The translations under genes and the position numbers were made by a program. Source: an uncultured Phycisphaerae bacterium (GTDB lineage: Bacteria; Planctomycetota; Phycisphaerae; UBA1845; Fen-1342). Taken from it: a stretch of DNA of 64,000 nucleotides. The notes under the pieces were generated by a model. That model did no database searches and was not told where the DNA came from. It was given only the letters and a program-made list of their open reading frames with translations. The DNA lies in the NCBI GenBank assembly GCA_937928595.1, contig CALGJV010000012.1, positions 124,001 through 188,000 of the forward strand. Reading direction: 5' to 3'. Positions 21,747 to 58,230 of the stretch are shown in pieces. Every line of letters begins with the position of its first letter. Positions within the stretch are counted from its first letter, which is position 1.

Positions 21747-22010
21747 GTGGAATCGCCGGACCTGTTCGTCGTCTTTCGCACGACCCTGTTCTTCGTGCTG
21801 ACGGTGTACACGCTCGTAACGACGGCGACGGCCGGCTGGCACGTGCTGCGGCTGTTGCGGGGCGACACGAGCCGTCACCGGTTACTGAGGACGTACCTCG
21901 GGTACCAGCTCCTCTCGGTGCGGCTGGAACCGCTGCGAGGCGAGTTGCTTCAGATCGCGCTTTGGCTGACCATGCTCGGGGTGTTGTGGTGGCTGCACGG
22001 AGTGGTGTAG
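21747..22010 (+). CDS. Small two-helix membrane protein of unknown function
   Basis: An 87-residue protein with a GTG start preceded by TAGGAGCGGG. Two hydrophobic segments are visible: about residues 6-33 (LFVVFRTTLFFVLTVYTLVT) and 69-86 (LLQIALWLTMLGVLWWLHGV). Between them lies a basic loop with RLLRGDTSRHRLLRTYLGYQ. I recognise no family. Its position 9 bases after yggS and 39 bases before another membrane protein suggests one transcript. It could be a small scaffold or regulator. Confidence 0.6.
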   Translation: MESPDLFVVFRTTLFFVLTVYTLVTTATAGWHVLRLLRGDTSRHRLLRTYLGYQLLSVRLEPLRGELLQIALWLTMLGVLWWLHGVV

Positions 22011-22049
22011 CCTGCGGGCCGGCTGCCCGTGCGGCCGGGGAGAGTGTGC

Positions 22050-22559
22050 ATGGACGACCGTCCGGACAGCGCGCAACCGCCGCCGCAAGCCGCGGACGCC
22101 AGTGCGCCGCCGACCAGCCCGCCGGCGAGCCTGCTGGACCGGGTGGTGGGGCACGTCCGGCAAGCGGGCAGCGACCTGATGTCGGTGACGCTGGGCCGCC
22201 TGCTGGACGCGGGCGGTCCGCCGCCGGCCCCTCCCGGTGCGGCCCCCGCCGAGCCAGCGCCCCACCCGCCCGAGAAGGCGGGAATGCTGCACGCGGTGGC
22301 CGAGCGGCTGCGCGGCGCGGCCGATGCGTACGTCGCGGCCAAGATGGACGAGCTCTCGGCGCGGGTGGACGAGAAGCTCGACCACATCGAGGCGCGGATC
22401 GACCGCAAGGTCGAGGAGCTGCACCGGCAGTTCACGGAGCTGCGCGACCGCGAACTGCGACACCGGCTGCGGATGCTGAAGTACACGCTCGTGTTCACCG
22501 TGCTTGTCGGGGTTCTGTCGCTGCTATATAAGTGGCTGAGCAAGCACTGGATCGCGTGA
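22050..22559 (+). CDS. Tail-anchored coiled-coil membrane protein of unknown function
   Basis: A 169-residue protein. The first 75 residues are Pro/Ala-rich and probably disordered, with a short helical island LLDRVVGHVRQAGSDLM. Residues about 80-140 are a charged amphipathic helix with heptad character (DELSARVDEKLDHIEARIDR). A single membrane helix near the C-terminus (about 147-165, LKYTLVFTVLVGVLSLLYKW) makes it tail-anchored. I chose ATG 22050, which has GGGGAGAG upstream, over an earlier alternative start at 22029. No family is recognised. It lies between the two-helix protein and the Clp N-domain protein in a tightly spaced plus-strand group. Confidence 0.6.
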   Translation: MDDRPDSAQPPPQAADASAPPTSPPASLLDRVVGHVRQAGSDLMSVTLGRLLDAGGPPPAPPGAAPAEPAPHPPEKAGMLHAVAERLRGAADAYVAAKMDELSARVDEKLDHIEARIDRKVEELHRQFTELRDRELRHRLRMLKYTLVFTVLVGVLSLLYKWLSKHWIA

Positions 22560-29825: not shown

Positions 29826-29900
29826 GGGGCCGTAGCTCAATTGGTCCAGAGCGCCGCCCTGTCACGGCGGAGGTTGCGGGTTCGAGCCCCGTCGGCCTCG
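29826..29900 (+). tRNA. tRNA-Asp (anticodon GTC)
   Basis: A full cloverleaf can be drawn. The acceptor is GGGGCCG with CGGCCTC (one wobble), the D-stem GCTC with GAGC, and the anticodon stem CCGCC with GGCGG around loop CTGTCAC (GTC at 29861-29863). The T arm is GCGGG-TTCGAGC-CCCGT, and the discriminator is G. The 3' CCA is not encoded. A strong promoter lies just upstream, so it is a single-gene tRNA unit. Confidence 0.96.
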
Positions 29901-51614: not shown

Positions 51615-52511
51615 TCAGTCGCAGTTCTTCCACGTGTACTTATAGTGGATCGGCGGAATCGGCTGGCCCGCACGGCGAATCCAGTTCGGGTTGATCGCCT
51701 TCCAGCCCGGCCCGCACCACTTACGTGTGTTGAGCGGCCGGTATTCCGCGTGGCCGTCGAGGAAGCCCACGGCATGCTTGGCGAACGCGCCGTGAGTGCC
51801 CATGGTCTCCATGCGTTGCAGGAGCCCGATGTCCGCGGGCTCATCGAGGAACAGCGTGAACTCGGCCGAATACTTCGCGAACATGTCCTTGATCAGGCGC
51901 CGTCCCACGCGCACCCAGCCCTGGCCGCCCTGCTGCCACGGGTTGTATTCGTTTATCCCTTCCTTCAGATCGGCGAACGCTTCGAGGTTGTACCAGTAGC
52001 TCGTGCCGGTGTCCTCCCACGACGGCATGTTGAGCGGCTCGTCCCACACGCTGCCACGCGCTCGGCTCTGCCGGTCGGAGGGGCACTGGAGGACGGGCAC
52101 GGGCGAGCGCTTGATCACCTGGCCGTTCTCCTCGAGGTCCGGCTCGATCGCCCCGCTCATGAGGTACGAGTTCAACGGGCGGTCCTTCGCTCGCAGGTAG
52201 AAGATGCCGTCCCAGCGCGTCTGCCACCAGGGGTCGGCCGTCTGGCCGCCGTACGTCCACGGACAGATGCCCATCCAGCTGTTGCCGACGATCACCGCGA
52301 ACGGGAACTCGTCGTTGTACTCCGTGAAGTACGTCTGCGTGGCGAGCGTGAGGCTCTTCAGATTCGCGATGCACTTGGTGATCTTCGCCTGCTCCCGGGC
52401 CCTCTGGAGCGACGGCAGCAGGATGGAGATCAGCAACGCGATGATCGCTACCACCACCAGCAGCTCGATCAGCGTGAACCCCCGCCCGCGTTTGTTCCAA
52501 TGCACGTCCAT
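51615..52511 (-). CDS. Prepilin-type N-terminal cleavage/methylation protein
   Basis: A 298-residue pseudopilin-like protein. Residues 11-36 give [20 protein letters not shown], almost identical to the two other members in this window. The rest is a large extracellular domain with aromatic-rich segments such as [18 protein letters not shown], a QCPSDRQ segment and a late [13 protein letters not shown]. The last resembles the H-X9-DG ending but with a shorter spacing. AGGAGTTGCAGG precedes the ATG at 52511. A terminator follows, so it is a single-gene unit. Function unknown; secretion-system or surface pilus-like roles are inferred from the N-terminus only. Confidence 0.85.
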
Positions 52512-52857
52512 CCTGCAACTCCTGTGCAGACCACTCACTTTCTACCCGGGGCGCAACCGTGCGGCTTATAGTCGGCCGATCTAAGCCGGACATGAGCCGA
52601 ATCCGACGGGGGGCCGGATCCGAGCCGCTCCCGACAGCCTGGTGAGCCTTCACTGGCCGCGGGTAGCAAGCACCCGCGGAAGCGCCGATTCCACCGGCCG
52701 CCGGTTCAACGGGCATTATAGCAGTGCTCCCAACCGCGACTGAAGAACTGTCCGGCAACGGTTCCGGAGCGTTCCTCGGCCGTCGTTTTCGGACACCCGG
52801 CGGTTTCGGGGCCGCAGGCCCTTGCTCCGCGGCAACGCAGTCGTAGCATCGCCGGCG
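52512..52857. other. Divergent intergenic region, 346 bases
   Basis: This region must carry promoters for the prepilin-like gene (minus) and the flavoprotein (plus). It is locally less GC-rich, with ATTATAGC near 52715. I find no well-spaced -35/-10 pair, no hairpin of note and no gene. Confidence 0.5.
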
Positions 52858-54169: not shown

Positions 54170-55609
54170 TCACGCGAGCAGGAGCGGCCGGCCGGGCTCC
54201 ACTTTGAGCGGCGGCATCGTGGCGAGGCGCGCGCGCAGGTCTTCCACGTCGAGCGCGAACGCCGGGCTGATCTCCAGCGGGGCGGCCGGCTCCCCGTCAA
54301 CGCCGCGGGGCACGGGCACGCCGCAGGCTTCGAGCCAACGCGCGGCCCGGCGCACGAGGTCGCGCCGCGTGGTCGCGGGCGAATCGACGCCCTCGGCGTT
54401 CTTCACGGGGCTGAACTCCTCCTCGCGCCGCGTGAACAGCACGAGCGGGCGCTCGGCCAGCGGGATCGCGTCGAAAACGAAGAGCTCGAGCTTGACCGCA
54501 TTGGGGGCCGTCGGCTCGGCGACCCGGCCGGCGTCATCGACGGTCGGCACCTTCTTCTCGGCCCGATGCCACGGGAGCTGCACACGGGCACCGGGCGCCG
54601 TCAGCCGCTCCACGAAACTCCGGCTCAGCACATGAATCGCGATGCTGCCGGCGTCAAAGCGCCGGGAGCCGTCCGCGTTGCGCGCCGTCGCGAGCGATTC
54701 CGGCAAGTCGCTGTACTCGATCACCGTCACGCGGCCGTCCACGAGACAGAAGTTGCCGACTTTCTCGGTGTCGAACGCCTTCGTGACCGCCTTGCTCGAC
54801 ATCTCCGAGCCGGTGAGCAGATGCAACCCGATGAACAACGGATCGATTGTTCGCACCAGCGGGTTGTCCACCTGGAAGTAGCTGATCGTGTCGATGCCGT
54901 GGGCACGCATGTCGTCGAGCGCACCGCGCTCTCGCAGCGCCCGCAGGCTGCCGCCGTGTCCGTCGGGCGACAGCGCGAGCCGGTGACGCTCCGCCAGGGC
55001 CATCCGCCCGTCCGGCAGGAATGCCGGCATCTGACCCTGCTGGAAAAATACGACCTCATCCGCTCGCAGGCCGAAGTAGCGGTGATCGGCAAAGAAGGCG
55101 GTCGTCTGCGCGTGGTTCACCGGGCTGGTCATGATGTACCAGCGGGGGCGGCGGCCGTAACGGCGCTCGACGCCGAGCAGCCCCTCGGCGAAAAGCTGGA
55201 AAAGCGTCGCGTTGCGCACCGGGCTGATCGAAAACGCGCCCTTCGGGCCGTCGAACCCCAGCCGCGTGCCCTGTCCGCCCGCCACGGTAAACGCGGCCAC
55301 GCGCCCCGCCCGAAGCGCCTCTTCGCCGGTCCGGCGGGCCCGGTTGTACAGGTCCGCCCGGTCCGGCCCGGGCTCTGCGGGGTAGCTCGGCGGCGGCTCG
55401 ATGTGTTCCGGGATGTGCACCGTCGGCCGCTGTCGCACGTGCGTCTCGATGAGTGACGCGCAGAGCTCAAAATCCACCTGATCGAGGTCGTCAAGCAACT
55501 GCGCCCGCTCGCCGTCGGTCAGCTCCGTCCAGAAGCGGAGGAGGTGCGTCTGGTGGTGCCGGGACAACTTCTGCGTCCAGTCGGCGTATCGATCGGACAA
55601 CGTGGCCAT
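54170..55609 (-). CDS. UDP-sugar pyrophosphorylase (UDPGP/UAP type 1 family)
   Basis: A 479-residue nucleotidyltransferase of the eukaryote-like UDPGP family. The nucleotide loop is FTVAGGQGTRLGFDGPKGAF (about residues 107-126). Further marks are YIMTSPVNHAQTTAFFADH, FFQQGQMPAF, SPDGHGGSLRALRERG, YFQVDNPLVR and KVPTVDDAG. It resembles UDP-N-acetylglucosamine pyrophosphorylase more than UDP-glucose pyrophosphorylase, and should make UDP-HexNAc from the sugar 1-phosphate and UTP. That product feeds peptidoglycan-like or surface glycan synthesis. It is divergent from the DUF362 gene (50 bases). Confidence 0.88.
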   Translation of the reverse strand: MATLSDRYADWTQKLSRHHQTHLLRFWTELTDGERAQLLDDLDQVDFELCASLIETHVRQRPTVHIPEHIEPPPSYPAEPGPDRADLYNRARRTGEEALRAGRVAAFTVAGGQGTRLGFDGPKGAFSISPVRNATLFQLFAEGLLGVERRYGRRPRWYIMTSPVNHAQTTAFFADHRYFGLRADEVVFFQQGQMPAFLPDGRMALAERHRLALSPDGHGGSLRALRERGALDDMRAHGIDTISYFQVDNPLVRTIDPLFIGLHLLTGSEMSSKAVTKAFDTEKVGNFCLVDGRVTVIEYSDLPESLATARNADGSRRFDAGSIAIHVLSRSFVERLTAPGARVQLPWHRAEKKVPTVDDAGRVAEPTAPNAVKLELFVFDAIPLAERPLVLFTRREEEFSPVKNAEGVDSPATTRRDLVRRAARWLEACGVPVPRGVDGEPAAPLEISPAFALDVEDLRARLATMPPLKVEPGRPLLLA

Positions 55610-55659
55610 CTTCCGGATTCCATCAAAGCGGGAGGCGCTCGCGTCGCGATAGGGTAGTT

Positions 55660-56709
55660 ATGCTCCGGGAACCGGTCAAACCGCCGGGTGGCTTGACCCG
55701 CCGCGACGTTCTCCGTGCGGCTGCGGCGGCGGGCACCGCCGCCTTTGTCGGCCGGTCCACCGCTTTCGCTCCCGTTCCGCCGCTGGTCGAGTCGCCGCCG
55801 ACCAGCCGCCCGGCGACTGCGCCCGCGGAGCGTCCTTGGTGGCTGGCCGCGCAGCCGCGACGGTCCCGGGTCGCGGAGATCACTTCTGGCGAGGTGTTTC
55901 GGCAGGGGGGCATCGATTCGGCCGTCTTGCGGCGGATGCTGGACGCCGGGTTGGCTGCGGCGGTGGGGCTCCCGACGGCGGCTGCGGCTTGGCGGCAGGT
56001 CCTGGGCCCGGCCCAGCGGATCCTGCTGAAGTTTAACCACGTCGGCGGATTGGTAATCGGGACGAACGAAGCCTTAGCGCAGGCGATGGTTGCATCGCTG
56101 ACTGAGGCCGGATACGCCGCCGAGCGGCTGGTCCTGGCCGAGGTGCCGTCGCCGACAACTTCCGCCGCGGGCGCGCGTCGGCCTGTTCCCGGGTGGGGTG
56201 GCGGGCTGCCGCTCGGGGAGGCGACGGAGGAAATCGCGGCGGCATTCCTTGAGGCCGACGCGGTCGTGAGCATCGGACAGCTCAAGACGCATGGCCTGGC
56301 CGGCATGAGCGGGGTGATGAAGAACCTCGCGTACGGCATCATTCGCCGCCCCGGACGGTACCACGCGAACGCATGTTCGCCGTTCGTTGGCCAGATTATC
56401 GGACATCCGGATGTCAGTCGGCGTCTCCGCCTATGTGTCTTGTCGGCGCTCAGGGTCCTGGTCCGCGGAGGGCCGGAGGCATTCGAGGAGGACCTGTACC
56501 AGTCCCGGACGCTGCTGGTCGGGGTTGACCCGGTGGCAGTCGACGTGGTAGGGCTCGATCACTTGCTATTTGCCCGGCGGAAGATGGGCGAGACCGAAGG
56601 GGTACGAGTACCTCATCTGGCCGCAGCGGCGGCCGCCGGCGTTGGTCGGGGCGACCCGCTCGACATTGAGCGGGTCGCAGTGGCCGACCCCGGCCAAGTG
56701 ATGGGGTAA
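55660..56709 (+). CDS. Tat-exported DUF362 protein
   Basis: A 349-residue protein. The N-terminus has a twin-arginine signal, LTRRDVLRAAAAAGTAAFVG, suggesting folded export, perhaps with a metal or cofactor. A linker with TSRPATAPAERP follows. The DUF362 core shows RILLKFNHVGG, AEVPSPTTSAAGARRPVPGW, DAVVSIGQLKTHGLAGMSGV, MKNLAYGIIRRPGRYHANAC and VDPVAVDVVGLDHLLFARRK. DUF362 proteins are often fused to ferredoxins; none is present here. Enzymatic role unknown. The ATG at 55660 overlaps no neighbour and lies 50 bases from the divergent pyrophosphorylase start. Confidence 0.85.
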   Translation: MLREPVKPPGGLTRRDVLRAAAAAGTAAFVGRSTAFAPVPPLVESPPTSRPATAPAERPWWLAAQPRRSRVAEITSGEVFRQGGIDSAVLRRMLDAGLAAAVGLPTAAAAWRQVLGPAQRILLKFNHVGGLVIGTNEALAQAMVASLTEAGYAAERLVLAEVPSPTTSAAGARRPVPGWGGGLPLGEATEEIAAAFLEADAVVSIGQLKTHGLAGMSGVMKNLAYGIIRRPGRYHANACSPFVGQIIGHPDVSRRLRLCVLSALRVLVRGGPEAFEEDLYQSRTLLVGVDPVAVDVVGLDHLLFARRKMGETEGVRVPHLAAAAAAGVGRGDPLDIERVAVADPGQVMG

Positions 56710-56763
56710 GTCAGTCGGCGTTGGCCGGCGAACGGAGCCCGGCGGTCCGACCATCCCGAAATG

Positions 56764-56821
56764 GTCACTTTTTCGTTGACAGCCCCATTTGTCCCGGTAT
56801 TCTTAGGATGTGAAAAGTGAC
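56764..56821 (+). promoter_or_regulatory. Strong sigma-70 promoter flanked by an inverted repeat
   Basis: TTGACA (56776-56781) and TATTCT (56798-56803), 16 bases apart, lie between GTCACTTTT (56764-56772) and its exact inverse AAAAGTGAC (56813-56821). One arm sits just upstream of the -35 and the other on the likely start site, as a repressor operator could. The transcript would start near 56810, about 500 bases before the next gene. Confidence 0.6.
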
Positions 56822-57315
56822 GGTTTAGGACGAATGAGGGCGATATAGCAATCAGGGCAAGGCATAAATCGTTTCATACGCATCATCAGCTGGCTTTCGT
56901 TTGCCCCTCGTTCATCGCGTTCTCCCCGACGTTCGTTCCTGCCGTATGCGGCTTCACGCTGCTGTTCGCGCGCCGACGATTTCGCGTCGTTCGTGCTTCT
57001 TCGCAGTGTGGGGTTGAACTACGCCCGAGCCGCGCAAATGTTGCGGGCCTGCGAGGCGGAGCCGCATAGATCTCTCGAGGCGCTTGATCCGCGGCGACCG
57101 GGTCCCATGCGGTCGCGAGGCGTCGGCCTGCGTCGGGCCGGCGCCTGTGCGCGGCGATCAGTTGCGGCGAGTGTCGAGGACGAGCGCAGTCGGACCTGAC
57201 ACAGTCCCGGCTGAGAAGGATCAGCCACGTTCTCGTACGTAACATTGTCGCATCAGCCGGTTTTGCGTGTCGCGGGCTGATCGGCAGGCGGTGATGGGAA
57301 CACAGGAGATTTCTC
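56822..57315. other. Long untranslated leader or unannotated RNA region
   Basis: No gene is supported in this 494-base stretch, though a minus-strand open frame crosses it. Two adjacent hairpins can be drawn: GCGACCG (57092-57098) with CGGTCGC (57108-57114), and an 11-bp stem with one wobble (57118-57128 with 57136-57146). Because a strong promoter lies just upstream, the region is either a structured leader of the prepilin-like gene or a separate small RNA. Confidence 0.45.
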
Positions 57316-58230
57316 GTGAAAAAGTCGAAGGCGTTTACCCTGATCGAGCTGCTGGTGGTGGTGGCGATCATCGCATTGCTGATCTCCATCCTGCTGCCCA
57401 GCCTCGCCCGTGCGCGCGAGATCGCGAAGCGGGCGGTGTGCGCCGCGAACCTGAAGGGCATCGGCACCGGGTTCAAGACGTACGCGAACGACAACTACGA
57501 TTCATACCCGATCTCGCTCTTCCAGGAAGGCGGGACGGGCGTGAACGGGACCGCAGTCAACTTCGTGGGGCAGATGAGCGTCAACTACACGTCGCAGATC
57601 ACGACGGCGACGTGGTCGAACGTGCACCCGAGCCGCTCGCTGTTCATCCTCGTGATCGACGGCACGGTGACGGCCAAGCAGTTCATCTGCCCGAGCTCCG
57701 GCGATGCGGAAGACGACCTCCGCAACCGCAGCGGCTCGACCGAAGTCGCGTCACAGCCCGGCACGAACCGGTTCGACTTCAAGGGCTACCCGTTCCTGAG
57801 CTACGGCTATCAGCTCCCGTTCGGGAAGGGCAAGCCCAATGAGAACCTGGACGCCCGCATGGCCATCTCGGCCGACAAGGGCCCGTTCTTCACTGCGGAC
57901 GCGCAGCAGGCCGATGGGACGGTCCGGGACAAGTACGAGACGGGCGTCAACAACCCGGCTCTGCTGGGTGCGACCACCGCGTCGGACATCCTCAAGGCCG
58001 AGAACGAGAAGTGGCGGCCGTACAACAGCCGCAACCACGCGGGCGAGGGCGAGAACGTACTGTTCCAGGACGGCCACGTCGAGTTCGTGAAGAAGCCGAT
58101 CGTCGGCGTGAACTACGACAACATTTACACCATGCACGACGGTTTCACGCTGGAGCGGACCCTGCTCGGCGTCAAGCCCGCCAACCAGCTCGGCCCGTAC
58201 CGGAACACGGATTCCGTCATCGTGCCGTAG
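57316..58230 (+). CDS. Prepilin-type N-terminal cleavage/methylation protein (H-X9-DG type)
   Basis: A 304-residue pseudopilin-like protein with a GTG start after ACAGGAGATTTCTC. The mature N-terminus is [20 protein letters not shown] (residues 6-25), followed by [20 protein letters not shown]. The C-terminal domain contains [18 protein letters not shown], the characteristic DGH motif. Between lie variable Ser/Thr/Asn-rich sequences. It has a long candidate leader with its own promoter and a terminator after it, so it is regulated as a single unit. Role unknown; cleavage by prepilin peptidase and membrane or pilus-like assembly are expected from the N-terminus. Confidence 0.88.

Follow-up and report, generated by a model that had tools for sequence, protein, structure and literature searches.

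The question raised by this locus is why one of the strongest-looking promoters in the window (the whole 64,000-nt stretch of DNA analysed) stands so far upstream of any gene that it could serve. A first-pass annotation had placed the promoter inside an inverted repeat and had proposed that it drives either a regulated small RNA or a long structured leader. Our analysis suggests that the region is probably the promoter and the approximately 500-nt untranslated leader of one DUF1559 prepilin gene, and that this leader is a conserved, pseudoknotted cis-acting RNA outside Rfam, which would set the translation and/or stability of that mRNA. The coordinates of the features are listed in Table 1.

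Table 1. Features of the prepilin locus, in positions of the window
Feature	Position	Strand	Remark
UDPGP-type uridylyltransferase gene	54170-55609	-	conserved divergent neighbour
Upstream ORF, DUF362 domain	55453-56709	+	start codon not settled; upstream neighbour in relatives too
Terminator-like hairpin after the DUF362 gene	56749-56766	+	such sites show no excess over shuffles
Left arm, exact 9-bp inverted repeat	56764-56772		overlaps T-run of terminator-like hairpin; not conserved
Promoter TTGACA-N16-TATTCT	56776-56803	+	matches 10 of the 12 consensus positions; RNA predicted to start near 56810
Untranslated leader of prepilin mRNA (predicted)	56810-57315	+	place kept, sequence partly, among relatives
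Right arm, exact 9-bp inverted repeat	56813-56821		in first bases of predicted transcript; not conserved
Domain 1, 5' strand of long imperfect stem (P4/P5)	56827-56841	+	strand-swap test
Domain 1, UCAU-rich segment, presumably unpaired	56872-56889	+	read from sequences, no statistic
Domain 1, inner 3' strand (P5)	56903-56913	+
Domain 1, outer 3' strand (P4)	56929-56939	+
Domain 2, three-way junction	57086-57159	+	covariation
P1	57089-57093/57150-57154	+
P2	57094-57100/57110-57116	+
P3	57121-57128/57136-57143	+	loop of GYGUN type
Pseudoknot 5' strand UCCCAU, in P2 loop	57103-57108	+
A/U-rich motif UUCUCGUACGUAACAUUGUC (CUCUNUUACGUAAU in relatives)	57230-57249	+	conserved block, no statistic
Pseudoknot 3' strand AUGGGA	57294-57299	+	4 nt before Shine-Dalgarno sequence
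Shine-Dalgarno sequence AGGAG	57304-57308	+	read from sequence
Prepilin gene, N_methyl (PF07963) + SBP_bac_10/DUF1559 (PF07596), 304 aa	57316-58230	+	start codon GTG 57316

The promoter is the best match in the window, in agreement with its earlier ranking among the best promoters. With up to two mismatches allowed, it is the single match in the whole 64 kb (0.30 expected), and it is the sole promoter-like site between 54000 and 60000 (0.3 expected). The predicted leader spans 506 nt between the predicted RNA start and the GTG at 57316, which is the next plausible start codon, so the distance of 500 bases given in the first-pass annotation holds. In several promoters of family f1, a T-run ends just before the -35 box (e.g., TTTTTCGTTGACA); these runs are perhaps UP-like elements or terminator tails.

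Direct DNA similarity to 60 relatives gives short hits of little weight, and it was the orthologs found by protein that gave the signal. The prepilin has close relatives of full length (50-70% identity) in its family, where 26 of 27 genomes match at E 1e-20. The canonical prepilin N-terminus is present at 24 family loci including the window, two of them on public contigs: L097 on CAIWOY010000275.1 ("uncultured Phycisphaerales bacterium") and L098 on JAUIEC010000010.1 ("Phycisphaerae bacterium"). A second, non-canonical group (L061, L069, L073, and L074, and also L070; L071 is partial) was kept apart; these prepilin-like proteins without the FTLIEL start (e.g., FSLADLLW) occur in several family genomes. 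When the other families of the order are searched with a profile of the family protein, 31 of 34 genomes contain candidate orthologs at E 1e-40.

The 800 nt before each prepilin start were searched with TTGACA-N16..18-TANNNT, and matches at -680 to -380 were counted, omitting the contig-truncated L062, L063, and L067 and the non-canonical L070; L199 gave no prepilin start. A consensus promoter lies in this range at 16 of the 21 family loci (shuffled mean 0.06; actual positions -393 to -573) and at 17 of the 29 loci of other families (shuffled mean 0.21), where 19 of 29 have one at any position. The genome of the window contains about 30 prepilins (30 matches including the window's own), and none of the 29 paralogs has a consensus promoter at -680 to -380 (shuffled mean 0.01); one of them has such a promoter at -94. 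The presence of the promoter at family and order orthologs and its absence from this range in all 29 paralogs indicate that the distal promoter and long leader mark this one ortholog group, order-wide. Another prepilin within the window (51615-52538, minus strand, locus L021), with an FTLIELLVV start, has neither the leader nor the promoter. By sequence comparison, a family of uncultured Phycisphaerales has kept the gene at its locus together with the promoter and the length of the leader, and the order at large has done so more loosely. The search for the leader in other species that the first pass had called for thus finds it in the same place at the family orthologs, in different genera, with blocks of sequence shared.

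We fetched 12 neighbourhoods, nine from the family and three from other families. The UDPGP gene is near the prepilin in 11 of the 12 and DUF362 in 8 (it was not found in the other 4), while the S1-domain gene downstream of the window's prepilin occupies the same place in only 3, and the leader therefore travels with the prepilin. The divergent UDPGP and DUF362 genes (54170-56709) form a conserved neighbourhood of the prepilin leader.

The leader does not belong to a known RNA family according to the Rfam searches. At the gathering score of Rfam 15, the window and 20 loci of the order show no leader match, and the only match in the window is a tRNA at 29826. Relaxing the threshold to E 10 for the window leader and to E 1 for seven family loci yields just a sub-threshold weev_FSE, on both strands. 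The gene downstream is a DUF1559 prepilin, not the ribosomal-protein gene expected of a ribosomal-protein leader. We also considered the leader as a repeat or mobile piece and rejected this, since the DNA search of its own genome returns the locus itself and short hits, the next best at E 0.002. No terminator-like site, as an attenuator would require, is present on the plus strand between 56804 and 57315.

The earlier description of the leader as structured gains nothing from single-sequence fold energy and is supported by covariation in relatives. Folding of the whole leader as a single sequence is no better than that of shuffled sequences (z -0.61; 23 of 100 shuffles fold as well). RNAalifold on 15 family leaders places a long imperfect stem (domain 1) close to the 5' end and a three-way junction (domain 2) near the middle. 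The two adjacent hairpins already seen in the first pass are part of the junction, at 57094-57116 and 57121-57143. Domain 2 was evaluated in alignment A1, which contains 19 of the 22 leaders in which it is recognised (L060, L062, and L065 were left out). In these 19 leaders, 85.8% of cells are paired, and 15 of the 18 pairs have two-sided changes. There are 55 two-sided cells compared with 19.6 in shuffled alignments (reached in 0 of 500 shuffles) and 14-19 in slid registers, and the covariation check proposed for the hairpins is thus strongly positive. Domain 2 is unrecognised in 2 of the 24 canonical family orthologs (L049 and L063).

The P2 loop UCCCAU(G) is complementary to AUGGGA near the end of the leader. 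A helix of 6-7 bp, with G-U allowed, can form at the chosen loop 7-mer in 22 of 22 leaders, and a freer search gives 5-9 bp. The two strands vary in a mutually matching way, as in CCCGUA/UACGGG, CCCAAC/GUUGGG, UUUCCAUG/CAUGGAAA, GUCCCUG/CAGGGAC, and GCCCAUU/AGUGGGC. On a free MAFFT alignment of the 22 leaders, 88.5% of the pseudoknot cells are paired, with 10 two-sided cells compared with 3.5 in shuffled alignments (0 of 500) and 0-5 in slid registers; on two of the five measures, 18 and 28 of the 500 shuffles do at least as well, and 10 of the 22 rows leave the outermost pair open. When the variant loops are tried on the sites of other species (G-U allowed), those of L051 and L065 fit their own site only, that of L066 fits one foreign site, L060 three, L054 nine, and L067 and L068 twelve each. 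The mean pseudoknot score is moderately higher than that of other windows of the same leaders (17.3 vs 15.3). The 3' strand ends 4 nt short of the Shine-Dalgarno sequence in the window and up to about 11 nt short of it elsewhere, which places a helix at the ribosome-binding site as in translational riboswitches. Because the strand lies beside the Shine-Dalgarno sequence and not over it, a simple sequestering switch is not evident.

The domain 1 stem is also conserved among the family leaders. Its alignment, A3, contains 14 of the 15 recognised leaders (L059 was left out), and column covariation of domain 1 in the MAFFT alignment is not above shuffles. The strand-swap test used 13 species, leaving out the near-duplicates L053 and L068; the mean energy is -28.0 kcal/mol for own strands vs -24.6 kcal/mol for swapped strands (1 of 20000 permutations), and the same test on six divergent species gives 1 of 720 permutations. 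The 5' strand of domain 1 pairs with either of two 3' strands, P4 and the alternative being nearly equal in the alignment, which could reflect a switch or mere ambiguity. Taken as a candidate cis-acting structured leader RNA, the element thus lies between promoter and start codon in many genomes and covaries in domain 2 and the pseudoknot, while domain 1 contributes through strand swapping only.

The junction model R1 has matches in 18 of the 114 genomes of the order, one per matching genome and always at this prepilin gene. All 18 are in family f1 and belong to the R1 training set, so this search is no independent proof by itself. For a split test, 10 leaders served to build a half model, R2, and 14 further leaders to test it. 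R2 locates the right place in 7 of the 14 at E 0.022 or better, two of which, L053 and L068, nearly duplicate rows of the training set; it reaches only E 0.19 and 0.41 at L059 and L062, and it has no match at L049, L060, L063, L064, and L065. Tried on 23 paralogs and L099 as controls (24 loci), R2 gives nothing below E 0.8, and neither R1 nor R2 finds a copy of the junction at other prepilins of the genome. A weak R1 match at 22004-22089 (25 bits, E 0.024) was considered as a further copy of domain 2 and dropped, as it does not recur with R2.

Beyond the family, R1 has no significant match at 30 orthologous loci from other families, and of 392 genomes across the phylum the window's own is the only one that it matches at E 0.001. 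With no significant match in the leaders of other families, and with domain 2 missed in two of the canonical orthologs, it is the promoter and the length, not the fold, that are shown to be common across the order. RNAalifold is weak on the f8 leaders (-14 kcal/mol) and better on those of f7, with no clear common fold. The f7 leaders (L200-L206) have the blocks CGUUAUCAU, GCCCGCGCGGGG, and CGCGAGUCAUUCC in common and may hold a conserved fold of their own. A short hairpin, GUGC(C/G)...(G/C)GCAC with a varying loop, abuts the Shine-Dalgarno sequence in all eight f4 leaders (L177 and L178 are near-identical), in 3 of 9 f8 leaders, and in the one f6 leader. The total of 12 of 29 compares with a mean of 0.8 when the upstream 60 nt are shuffled. 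Leaders with this hairpin include L177, L179, L180, L182, L184, L186, and L190 of f4 and L181, L183, and L193 of f8. In the sister family f4, the hairpin occupies the place held by the pseudoknot strand in the window's family; the hairpin of f4 and f8 is possibly a second type of ribosome-site helix, and what the families have in common may be a helix positioned at the ribosome-binding site.

Several other explanations of the region were weighed. The exact 9-bp inverted repeat described in the first pass is indeed present, its arms being 40 nt apart and flanking the promoter symmetrically, and one might regard it as an operator and the regulated promoter as the main point of the locus. Exact 9-bp inverted repeats as a class are not commoner than chance and are weak evidence, with 39 exact 9-mer inverted pairs at 20-60 nt spacing in the window vs 47 in first-order Markov simulations, but the one at the promoter is the only A/T-rich pair of such kind in the window, and the simulations contain none. 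What did not hold is its conservation: 0 of 18 orthologous promoters are spanned by an inverted repeat of at least 6 bp, and no copy of the repeat was found elsewhere in its own genome. Because no ortholog keeps it, the repeat is unsupported as a control site; a conserved operator is ruled out, and we regard the operator explanation as very improbable. Still further from credible is an unannotated protein encoded by the leader. Most of the leader is spanned antisense by a 202-aa ORF, and ORFs of 68-69 aa lie inside it, but the ORFs in the leader have no Pfam match, and the compensatory changes track RNA pairs. When stop-free stretches are compared, the leaders resemble one another in several reading frames and on either strand, from which we conclude that the leader is not coding; the first pass had named a coding gene filling the leader as grounds for rejecting its proposal, and none emerged. 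A separate trans-acting small RNA that lies upstream of the prepilin by chance would account for the strong promoter of its own, the conserved fold, and a size of about 400-570 nt. It is nonetheless improbable, and the regulated small RNA suggested earlier becomes less likely: no terminator-like site that could end an independent transcript was found between promoter and gene, the 3' strand of the pseudoknot comes to within 4 to about 11 nt of the Shine-Dalgarno sequence, and the RNA model has no significant match away from the prepilin.

Within the reach of sequence comparison, the alternative offered in the first pass, a surface prepilin-like gene controlled through a long leader, finds support in the conservation of promoter, leader length, gene, and locus and in a covarying fold whose pseudoknot adjoins the Shine-Dalgarno site. 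This cis-acting leader, our preferred explanation, could take either of two forms. In one, which is tentative but quite possible, the leader is a constitutive stabiliser or booster that shields a putatively abundant surface-protein mRNA from decay, keeps its ribosome-binding site open, and senses nothing. The consensus promoter, the helix adjoining the Shine-Dalgarno sequence in the family and in f4, and a leader free of terminator or antiterminator are consistent with this, although such a role would not require 500 nt of folded RNA in which many unpaired bases are conserved. In the other form, about which we are more doubtful, a riboswitch or a protein-controlled switch acts on translation, and ligand binding makes or breaks the pseudoknot. 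The covarying pseudoknot next to the Shine-Dalgarno sequence and the competition of two almost equal domain 1 partners for the same 5' strand point in this direction; the restriction to one gene per genome with no metabolic gene indicating a ligand, the lack of a compact aptamer, a Shine-Dalgarno sequence outside the helix, and the lack of an Rfam match argue against it.

If the leader acts in cis, formation of the pseudoknot would close it into a compact body with its last helix at the edge of the ribosome-binding site. This compact fold would govern 30S loading and the rate of mRNA decay, so that production of the prepilin would be high or regulated. The A/U-rich segments at 56872-56889 and 57230-57249 might be docking sites for the ribosome (S1) or for an RNA-binding protein.

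Known leaders offer partial parallels. The preQ1 and SAM-II translational riboswitches form a pseudoknot at the Shine-Dalgarno site within less than about 100 nt. Like the prepilin leader, they have a long-range pseudoknot near the ribosome-binding site in a 5' leader, which here is judged by covariation; the prepilin leader differs in its length of about 500 nt, its single surface-protein gene, a strand beside rather than over the Shine-Dalgarno sequence, and the lack of an assigned ligand. The autoregulatory leaders of ribosomal proteins S4 and S15 also have a pseudoknot near the translation start, but the prepilin is not a ribosomal-protein gene, and an S1-domain gene follows it in only a minority of neighbourhoods. 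S-layer and ompA mRNAs have long structured leaders for abundant surface proteins and share with this locus a strong promoter, a long leader, and a surface protein; their leaders are shorter, and no conserved combination of three-way junction and pseudoknot is known from them. The nearest working analogue, by analogy only, is the standby element of the E. coli tisB +42 mRNA, in which a leader pseudoknot and an unpaired upstream segment are proposed to load 30S and S1 (PMC7708055). The prepilin leader likewise has a pseudoknot and also a conserved A/U-rich segment. The tisB pseudoknot is reported to be near the 5' end and the ribosome-binding site is sequestered, whereas the 3' strand in the prepilin leader is by an apparently open Shine-Dalgarno sequence; tisB is, moreover, a toxin gene, and the prepilin leader has neither a toxin nor homology to it (PMC7708055). 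The candidate structured RNA "Rhodopirellula-1" of an earlier genome survey is reported from Planctomycetes and Proteobacteria and differs from the prepilin leader in this range (PMC2864571).

DUF1559/SBP_bac_10 prepilins are greatly expanded in planctomycetes. They are reported as the biggest paralog group of Planctopirus limnophila, with 68 paralogs of which two are essential (PMC10632474), and as 41 or more genes per Planctomycetales genome (PMC8567305). No description of this prepilin leader was found in the open-licence literature, and the leader looks like an undescribed RNA control element. It may be imagined as the first large RNA known in Planctomycetota to sense a signal or to load ribosomes, an approximately 500-nt pseudoknotted fold kept order-wide for a single conserved prepilin among some thirty paralogs and coupling the expression of this subunit of a surface filament or of secretion to a cell-surface or growth signal via the pseudoknot at the ribosome-binding site, but we consider this full picture unlikely. 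For the phylum, the open-licence literature yielded no mapped leaders, and this one would give it a large structured RNA. By singling out one ortholog throughout the order, such an RNA leader would mark that prepilin as special among its paralogs and would provide a handle on its regulation.
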